Assembly (NCBI GenBank): GCA_030840645.1
Contig: JAVEEC010000056.1
Span: 1 to 64,000 of the forward strand
Reading direction: 5' to 3'
Origin: Frankiaceae bacterium
Lineage (GTDB): Bacteria > Actinomycetota > Actinomycetes > BP-191
DNA: 64,000 nucleotides
A program made the position numbers and the translations under genes. Below the pieces are notes generated by a model. The model did not search any database and was not told where the DNA came from. It worked only from the letters and a program-made list of their open reading frames with translations. Shown in pieces: positions 52,752 through 53,841 of the stretch. Position 1 is the stretch's first letter. Every line of letters begins with the position of its first letter.

Positions 52752-52771
52752 CGTCGACGGCGGGCCGCGGT

Positions 52772-52807
52772 AAATCCGTTGCCGGATACGGCCACGTCGC
52801 TTAACCT
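52772..52807 (+). promoter_or_regulatory. whiB7 promoter with AT-rich autoregulatory box
   Basis: AAAT at 52772-52775 lies 3 nt before a -35 TTGCCG (52779-52784), 17 nt before a -10 TAACCT (52802-52807). WhiB7 is known to act with the primary sigma factor at promoters carrying an AT-rich motif 3 bp upstream of -35, so positive autoregulation is expected. The transcript would start near 52814. Confidence 0.65.
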
Positions 52808-52849
52808 CCGCGAGGACGTACCCGAACCGACGCCGAGAGGAGGTGCCCG

Positions 52850-53059
52850 ATGGAGACCACGTGGACTGCGACCCGTACGGATCGCGCGCTGACGTCTGCC
52901 CTCGGCACCGTTCCCGCGTCGTCCCGTACGGGCAGCGTCGCGCTCGCCGCCAAGCCGCGGATCAATGGGGTCGCGCCCATGTCCGCGTTCGCCGGCGTCG
53001 CGTCGACGCACGTCGCGGACCAGGAGTCCCACCCGCCTCGAGAGCATCCGGTTGCCTGA
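52850..53059 (+). CDS. Leader peptide (uORF) of whiB7
   Basis: A 69-codon frame with a strong Shine-Dalgarno sequence (GAGAGGAGG at 52835-52843) inside the whiB7 leader. The peptide (start METTWTATRTDRALTS) has no recognisable domain, as expected of a regulatory uORF. Codons 58-65 overlap the left arm of the antiterminator hairpin, so a ribosome that completes the uORF blocks that arm and lets the terminator at 53079-53119 form, while stalling upstream frees it. Confidence 0.7.
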   Translation: METTWTATRTDRALTSALGTVPASSRTGSVALAAKPRINGVAPMSAFAGVASTHVADQESHPPREHPVA

Positions 53060-53093
53060 CCTGACCGGCGCCCCTCGAGGCCGCGGACTCCTG
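53021..53093 (+). promoter_or_regulatory. Antiterminator of the whiB7 leader
   Basis: CAGGAGTCC at 53021-53029 is a perfect complement of GGACTCCTG at 53085-53093, and CCTCGAG at 53036-53042 pairs with CTCGAGG at 53074-53080. Together they make a 16-bp two-part stem which uses bases that also belong to the left arm of the terminator, so the two structures exclude each other. Confidence 0.7.
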
Positions 53094-53119
53094 CCAAGGA
53101 GACCGCGGCCTTTTCGTTT
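53079..53119 (+). terminator. Intrinsic attenuator terminator of whiB7
   Basis: GGCCGCGG and CCGCGGCC form the base, CTCC/GGAG the upper stem with an A-A mismatch between, loop TGCCAA, followed by TTTTCGTTT. It lies 32 nt before the whiB7 start. Confidence 0.85.
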
Positions 53120-53151
53120 CCCCGCTCGAGTCACAAGGAGGTGACCTCGCA

Positions 53152-53421
53152 GTGTTCGACCTGATGGAGGCGGCCGACCTCCGCACGGACCTGCCGTGCT
53201 GGAGCTTCGACCCCGAGCTCTTCTTCGCGGAGAGCCCGGCGGACGTCGAGTACGCCAAGACGATCTGCACCGACTGCCCGATCAAGGCGGACTGCCTGGC
53301 CGGGGCGCTCGAACGGCGCGAGCCGTGGGGCGTCTGGGGCGGGGAGCTGCTCATCCAGGGCGTCGTCGTGCCCCGCAAGCGTCCGCGGGGCCGGCCGCGC
53401 AAGGAGGACGTCGCCGCATGA
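53152..53421 (+). CDS. whiB7: WhiB7 transcriptional regulator (antibiotic response)
   Basis: An 89-residue WhiB-family [4Fe-4S] protein. Cys16, Cys39, Cys42 and Cys48 are the cluster ligands; GVWGGE at 60-65 is the family turn that contacts the sigma factor; RPRGRPRK at 77-84 is an AT-hook, the mark of the WhiB7 subgroup. WhiB7 binds SigA and activates ribosome-protection, efflux and drug-modification genes when translation is inhibited. AAGGAGG lies 10 nt before GTG 53152. Position between uvrD2 and the ABC1 kinase matches mycobacteria. Expression should be controlled by the leader attenuator. Confidence 0.95.
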   Translation: MFDLMEAADLRTDLPCWSFDPELFFAESPADVEYAKTICTDCPIKADCLAGALERREPWGVWGGELLIQGVVVPRKRPRGRPRKEDVAA

Positions 53422-53486: not shown

Positions 53487-53651
53487 ATGTTGCTGCTCCA
53501 CGAGGAGCTGGCGCGAAGCCATCAGCAGCGCCTGCTCTCGGAGTCCCGGAGCGCCGGCCGTGCCGCGCGGCTGATCGCCGCACGGCGCTGGGCGCGCCGG
53601 GCGGAGGCGGCGGGCCGCAGGGCCCGTGCCGCGTCGCTCGCCATCTGGTGA
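53487..53651 (+). CDS. Small basic protein downstream of whiB7
   Basis: A 54-residue, Arg/Ala-rich helical protein (LLLHEELARSHQQRLL to ARAASLAIW) with AAGGAG 6 nt before ATG 53487. An in-frame ATG at 53418 that overlaps the whiB7 stop (ATGA) would give 77 residues and translational coupling. Similar short LHEELAR-type proteins are scattered in actinobacteria; function unknown. Co-transcribed with whiB7 up to the terminator at 53683. Confidence 0.65.
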   Translation: MLLLHEELARSHQQRLLSESRSAGRAARLIAARRWARRAEAAGRRARAASLAIW

Positions 53652-53682: not shown

Positions 53683-53716
53683 CGAAAGGCCCGGCATCTC
53701 GATGCCGGGCCTTTCG
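53683..53716 (+). terminator. Terminator of the whiB7 transcription unit
   Basis: A perfect 15-bp stem, CGAAAGGCCCGGCAT and its complement, with a CTCG loop. Confidence 0.9.
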
Positions 53717-53741: not shown

Positions 53742-53841
53742 GGTGTGCCGCGTCCCCCTCAGAACGCGCACACCATGGGCGGCGGGCGGCCCGGTGTCCC
53801 CCTCAGAACACCGAGCCGCCCTGGGCGAGCCCGAAGGCTCG
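53742..53841 (+). ncRNA. Twin hairpins with identical C-rich loops (6C-like candidate)
   Basis: Two stable hairpins, 53742-53774 and 53784-53821, each expose the loop TCCCCCTCAGAA. The first stem is GGTGTGC(C)GCG/CGCGCACACC; the second GGGCGGC-GGTGT/ACACC-GCCGCCC with a 2-nt internal mismatch. A third hairpin, CGAGCC-CGAA-GGCTCG, ends at 53841. Two hairpins with C-rich loops are the plan of the actinobacterial 6C sRNA, though only five Cs occur here. It could instead be the leader of the gene at 53937. No promoter was identified. Confidence 0.45.

Follow-up and report, generated by a model that had tools for sequence, protein, structure and literature searches.

A probable ribosome-controlled attenuator leader of whiB7 in a Frankiaceae bacterium, and a microprotein gene next to whiB7

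Results

The whiB7 locus

We analysed a 64,000-nucleotide stretch of DNA (the window) from a Frankiaceae bacterium (assembly GCA_030840645.1, contig JAVEEC010000056.1). The host genome comprises 3.5 Mb in 152 contigs, and its actinobacterial order is represented by just three genomes in the genome collection searched. In the window, whiB7 is flanked on the 5' side by a UvrD/HRDC helicase gene and on the 3' side by an ABC1 kinase gene. Mycobacterial whiB7 at Rv3198c-Rv3197 has the same neighbourhood, with a uvrD2-like gene before it and an ABC1 kinase gene after it. The WhiB7 protein matched the Pfam family Whib (E 1.5e-15, 57.9 bits), and its match to Pfam AT_hook was weak (16.2 bits, slightly under the family cut-off). 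Direct reading of the residues gave four cysteines, REPWGVWGG and the AT-hook KRPRGRPRK. The protein therefore has what characterizes Wbl class V (WhiB7/WblC), namely a four-cysteine Wbl domain, EPW with G(V/I)WGG, and KRPRGRPRK (PMC6282962).

The features of the leader, of whiB7 and of the region 3' of it are listed below with the evidence for each.

52772-52775, +: AT-rich putative WhiB7 (AT-hook) site AAAT, within GTAAAT (52770-52775), 3 nt 5' of the -35 (sequence, relatives, published motif)
52779-52784, +: -35 hexamer TTGCCG (sequence, relatives, genome pattern search)
52802-52807, +: -10 hexamer TAACCT (TANNNT) after a 17-nt spacer (sequence, relatives, genome pattern search)
52838-52844, +: Shine-Dalgarno sequence AGGAGGT of the upstream open reading frame, uORF (sequence; kept across the class)
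52850-53059, +: uORF of 69 codons, ATG at 52850, TGA at 53057-53059 (list of open reading frames; class-wide frame conservation)
53021-53029, +: 5' arm CAGGAGTCC of the predicted antiterminator outer helix P1, in uORF codons 58-60 (coevolves with the terminator arm)
53035-53042, +: 5' arm GCCTCGAG of the predicted antiterminator helix P2 (fold, relatives)
53048-53068, +: predicted hairpin P3, 53048-53053 with 53063-53068, uORF stop in the loop (fold, relatives)
53074-53081, +: P2 3' arm CTCGAGGC, overlapping the foot of the terminator
53077-53119, +: predicted intrinsic terminator, stem 53077-53112, T-tract TTTTCGTTT from 53111 (fold energy, relatives)
53085-53093, +: P1 3' arm GGACTCCTG, common to the terminator left arm (fold, swap test)
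53152-53421, +: whiB7, 89 aa, GTG start (Pfam Whib, direct sequence reading)
53487-53651, +: predicted 54-aa Arg-rich single-helix microprotein (homologues, purifying selection, AlphaFold2)
53685-53714, +: strong inverted repeat AAAGGCCCGGCATC-TCGA-TGCCGGGCCTTT (equivalent hairpin after the microprotein gene in both congeners)

Promoter and WhiB7 site

The promoter reads GTAAAT-CCG-TTGCCG-N17-TAACCT. A preliminary description of this DNA had claimed AAAT 3 nt before TTGCCG-N17-TAACCT, which is exact in the sequence. GTAAAT matches five of the six positions of GAAAWY, the WblC site of Streptomyces coelicolor, which also sits 3 nt 5' of the -35 (PMC7157823). It is also in register with the published AT-rich site that WhiB7 needs for activation in vitro, where autoactivation by WhiB7 has been found (PMC3905903). 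The sequence features of a WhiB7-autoregulated SigA promoter, i.e. an AT-rich motif 3 nt before the -35, TTG... and TANNNT, are all present here. An AAAT-like AT-rich motif followed by N3-TTGC-N17/18-TANNNT was found in the same register before the uORF in 90 of 97 leaders of relatives. Across the 3.5 Mb genome the pattern AAAT-N3-TTGC-N18..20-TANNNT had a single occurrence, which is the whiB7 leader, and the reversed control gave 0. A generic sigma-70 promoter and terminator scanner run on the window called neither a promoter nor a terminator, as TTGCCG/TAACCT and the tail of the terminator fall outside its consensus rules.

With AAAW-N3-TTGC-N18..20-TANNNT as the pattern, one other exact site was detected in the genome (G000:C119:6856-6892, reverse strand; L118 1501-1537), about 180 nt upstream of a gene for a WhiB1-like protein of 86 aa. 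This suggests possible control of the WhiB1-like gene by WhiB7; a site near that gene was not found in two congeners with the same pattern.

Upstream open reading frame

The 69-codon uORF with a strong Shine-Dalgarno sequence, as claimed earlier, was borne out by the sequence, and its frame and stop position are kept across the class. Requiring GGAGG or AGGAG as the Shine-Dalgarno sequence, a length of 30 codons or more and a distance of 19-32 nt from stop to terminator, we found such a uORF in 92 of 107 leaders, with stops 20-31 nt from the terminator, as compared to 0.3 expected from shuffles. An attenuator needs a uORF with a Shine-Dalgarno sequence between promoter and terminator; the sequence provides one, with its translation predicted.

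Between congeners, differences in the uORF at codon positions 1/2/3 numbered 14/16/16, with 28 nonsynonymous versus 5 synonymous codons, and no amino-acid selection was seen in this codon-position comparison. The congener uORFs have 69, 65 and 69 codons, so that length changes in whole codons. The frame and the stop position appear to be under selection and the peptide does not, and therefore the uORF would sense translation in general. An ermC-like drug-sensing arrest peptide, or a sensor of a specific amino acid, would place the signal in the peptide itself. The uORF is indeed rich in Ala and Thr (13 and 9 of 69 residues), and mycobacterial whiB7 responds to alanine starvation according to PMC11550727, which cites Poulton 2024 for this. 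However, high Ala (class mean 16.8%) is expected from the GC content, and the RNA arms of P2 and P3 dictate the conserved C-terminus that recurs as WSPPV or WSDPA. A selected peptide is required of an erm-type arrest leader, whereas the change here was equal at all codon positions and mostly nonsynonymous. A peptide or residue sensor is thus highly improbable.

Terminator and antiterminator

An intrinsic terminator upstream of the gene, another requirement of an attenuator, is found before whiB7. It had been placed at 53079-53119 with a T-tract; terminator and T-tract are present, and the stem starts at 53077, which adds 2 bp to its 5' side. The antiterminator had been described as two-part and sharing GGACTCC with the terminator. 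GGACTCC is common to both structures and the complementarity is exact: 53021-53029 (CAGGAGTCC) is perfectly complementary to 53085-53093 (GGACTCCTG), and 53036-53042 (CCTCGAG) to 53074-53080 (CTCGAGG). P2 comprises 8 bp in all (53035-53042 with 53074-53081). To that description we add a third hairpin around the uORF stop, P3, which appears conserved since its layout CCGGTC..stop..GACCGG recurs in most leaders.

Comparison of whiB7 loci

For comparison we sampled 110 whiB7 loci across the class, 80 from named genome contigs and 30 from whole genomes including the window's own. A terminator of the GGCCGCGGA..CC type was found upstream of whiB7 in 107 of these. The window had no Rfam family at threshold, and the leader, searched with relaxed settings, gave chance matches only. 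The terminator GGCCGCGGAACCC..GGGATCCGCGGCC is near-invariant across the class and lies outside every Rfam family; a covariance model of it would be a useful addition to Rfam.

The pairing of the antiterminator was analysed with the terminator right arm omitted, which mimics the moment before that arm is transcribed. In the 97 distinct leaders the left arm made 16.2 pairs with upstream sequence, as compared to 9.5 in shuffles; in 77 of the 97 the pairing outdid 95% or more of the shuffles, and the mean z of the ensemble energy was -3.66. In the window's leader the left arm paired upstream better than in 40 of 40 shuffles. A MAFFT alignment of the leaders misplaced the outer helix because the spacing of P1, P2 and P3 varies, and counting of aligned pairs was replaced by these shuffle tests and by swap tests. 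The latter, in which each leader's own terminator arm is compared to a foreign one, were chosen to avoid the circularity of predicted pairs; as the relatives are phylogenetically non-independent, their p-values are indicative. In 18 minority-class leaders, those with a terminator arm other than the majority GGAACCC, the outer arm gave -10.35 kcal/mol with the native and -7.47 kcal/mol with the foreign partner (p=0.002). This was clearest in the window's genus (GGACTCC) and in a GGCACCC group, with L001 giving -12.6 native versus -4.9 with GGAACCC. The 64 majority leaders differed little (-7.7 versus -7.1). Swapping of P2 gave -10.4 native versus -6.9 foreign (p=5e-11), and within the genus P2 has changed on both sides, with L089 having CCTCGGGG and CCCCGAGG.

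The preliminary description would have been overturned by a lack of conserved alternative pairing in relatives. Both kinds of test and L089 show instead that the pairing is kept with compensatory change, and the antiterminator overlaps both the uORF and the terminator left arm, as in an attenuator. These data also bear on the alternative of a plain constitutive terminator, e.g. of the upstream uvrD2-like gene, with an accidental antiterminator pairing. The hairpin is very stable and lies about 330 nt 3' of a gene on the same strand, as such a terminator might. On the other hand, the antiterminator arms coevolve with the terminator arm, the uORF, the promoter and the distance from stop to terminator are kept class-wide, and a conserved promoter lies between uvrD2 and the hairpin. 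We therefore give a constitutive terminator next to no credence.

Predicted folding and ribosome geometry

The stretch 53043-53125 was predicted to fold as the terminator (-38.5 kcal/mol, z -3.3) and 53015-53125 as the antiterminator (-50.3 kcal/mol, z -3.25; none of 200 shuffles as good). Folding had been proposed as a check, and truncation from the 5' side past the P1 left arm did switch the antiterminator to the terminator: folds started at 53010 or 53020 gave the antiterminator (P1 0.93) and the fold started at 53030 gave the terminator (0.84), and it is in this interval, 53020 to 53030, that the P1 left arm is lost. In most relatives the terminator was thermodynamically preferred in the fold of the complete region; the antiterminator was absent from that equilibrium fold in most of them and appeared when the right arm was left out. 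The switch must therefore be kinetic, with the antiterminator folding ahead of synthesis of the right arm.

Stalling before codon 58 of the uORF had been claimed to expose the left arm. With a 26-nt ribosome footprint, the value used for ilvB1 (PMC13236596), the P-site must halt before about codon 53 to keep 53021 free, which moves the limit accordingly. A single ribosome at the uORF stop leaves the left arms of P1 and P2 uncovered, and the OFF state would therefore require ribosomes in codons ~53-66 while the terminator is synthesized, or steric blocking.

In the predicted fold of the complete, ribosome-free leader, 52851-52872 pairs with 53012-53031 and the terminator forms; in a fold started at 52900 the P1 arm is freed and mainly the antiterminator results. 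This is the behaviour of a trp-type four-segment attenuator, in which 52850-52872 would sequester the P1 arm when no ribosome is present, untranslated RNA would terminate, and only stalls early or midway in the uORF would switch the gene on. A similar pairing was predicted in L089. However, it was absent in the congener L088 and inconsistent elsewhere: 31 of 83 leaders had more than 50% of the arm sequestered, with scattered partners. The conserved 1:2 pairing required of a trp-type attenuator is thus predicted in the window and inconsistent in relatives. In addition, loss of uORF translation turns the gene on in the published wblC model as outlined in PMC11550727, and the predicted OFF state of the window's ribosome-free full leader differs from the published rule that translation represses. 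We regard a trp-type attenuator as unlikely. The trp-like sequestering arm, predicted in the window and not conserved, is not claimed as a feature.

Microprotein gene downstream of whiB7

The 54-aa reading frame of the microprotein spans 53487-53648. Homologues (~55 aa) are encoded directly 3' of whiB7 in 92 of the 110 loci, and in 60 whole genomes 28 of 31 matches to the microprotein profile adjoin whiB7. Differences between congeners fell at codon positions 1/2/3 in a 9/2/21 pattern, and the microprotein appears to be under strong purifying selection. The AlphaFold2 model is a single helix (pLDDT 93). No match was found in Pfam, NCBIfam, PHROGs or PDB, nor was the microprotein seen at the whiB7 loci examined from mycobacteria, Rhodococcus and Frankia. 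A literature search, thin on subscription papers, found no paper on it. No T-tract terminator was seen in the gap between whiB7 and the microprotein gene, and the inverted repeat at 53685-53714 is likely the end of the whiB7 transcript; the microprotein and whiB7 are therefore probably on the same transcript. Beyond the 3' end of the whiB7 unit, at 53750-53810, the phrase GTCCCCCTCAGAAC is repeated, and L088 has a comparable phrase in about the same location.

Discussion

We consider it very probable that the leader attenuates whiB7 transcription under ribosome control and that WhiB7 in addition activates its own promoter. This reading is based on the anatomy, the mutually exclusive predicted folds and the coevolution of the arms; the transcript in vivo, the positions of ribosomes, the drug response and the autoactivation are what we infer from it. 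A SigA-type promoter bearing an AT-hook site for WhiB7 would start transcription at about 52813, and ribosomes would load at the strong Shine-Dalgarno sequence and translate the uORF. During free translation, ribosomes over the last ~15 codons (53010-53059) would block the left arms of P1 and P2, the GGCCGCGGACTCC hairpin would form and RNA polymerase would stop at the T-tract before whiB7. With stalling or slowing before about codon 53, by drug-bound ribosomes or starved tRNAs, P1, P2 and P3 would form first and occupy the terminator left arm, and RNA polymerase would continue into whiB7. WhiB7 would then boost its own promoter. Homology makes induction by most ribosome-targeting drugs plausible.

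The microprotein gene is a newer observation than the attenuator mechanism. We propose, tentatively and as a possibility a little short of even, that in most Actinomycetes, mycobacteria and their kin excepted, the whiB7 unit has an undescribed second product, an Arg-rich helical microprotein of ~55 aa, which would be induced by the same attenuator and act with WhiB7 in the response to antibiotic or translation stress, e.g. on RNA polymerase, WhiB7 or the ribosome. Set against the leader peptide, which shows no selection, the strong selection on the microprotein points to a new, testable component of a resistance regulon that affects drug tolerance across Actinobacteria.

The proposal that a uORF attenuates whiB7/wblC dates from 2014 (PMC4128351), and PMC11550727 treats it as established; summaries of the genetic evidence in S. 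coelicolor and mycobacteria are given in PMC11550727, PMC13236596 and PMC4128351. The mechanism is thus already known and is found here in a poorly sampled actinobacterial order. The window's leader appears to match the whiB7/wblC attenuator on every point that sequence can test, and is to all appearance a real and complete copy of this known switch for the resistance regulator whiB7. With strong comparative support, our analysis adds an order represented by three genomes to the known range of this antibiotic-response switch, and gives a class-wide consensus of a near-invariant terminator, a three-helix antiterminator around the uORF stop, and a uORF selected for frame and not for peptide.

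In comparison to other systems, trp/ilv leader-peptide attenuators such as ilvB1 of M. tuberculosis (PMC13236596) likewise let the ribosome position on a leader ORF pick antiterminator or terminator, but the leader studied here has no regulatory codon block or selected peptide and would sense translation in general. The Mycobacterium whiB7 leader, as far as described in Burian & Thompson 2018 and Dinan 2014 (PMC4128351), shares a uORF right after a consensus Shine-Dalgarno sequence, a terminator with a T-tract and an autoregulated AT-rich promoter. The mycobacterial loci L034, L042 and L062 differ in a diverged terminator (GGCCACGGACCCG), in P1/P2 pairing that is weaker or elsewhere, and in being without the microprotein. 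For S. coelicolor wblC (Lee, Lee & Roe 2022, Mol Microbiol 117:179, as described in PMC11550727), the account gives a uORF, a Rho-independent terminator and a competing antiterminator upstream of the gene, with the same promoter type. The Streptomyces loci compared here have the same terminator motif and three-helix antiterminator. They differ in the uORF (about 90-119 codons in most, versus 69 here), in the distance from terminator to whiB7 start (about 150-220 nt versus 39) and in P1 (GGAACCC versus GGACTCC/GGAGTCC), and in the window's leader the antiterminator wins at equilibrium after the 5' part is removed.
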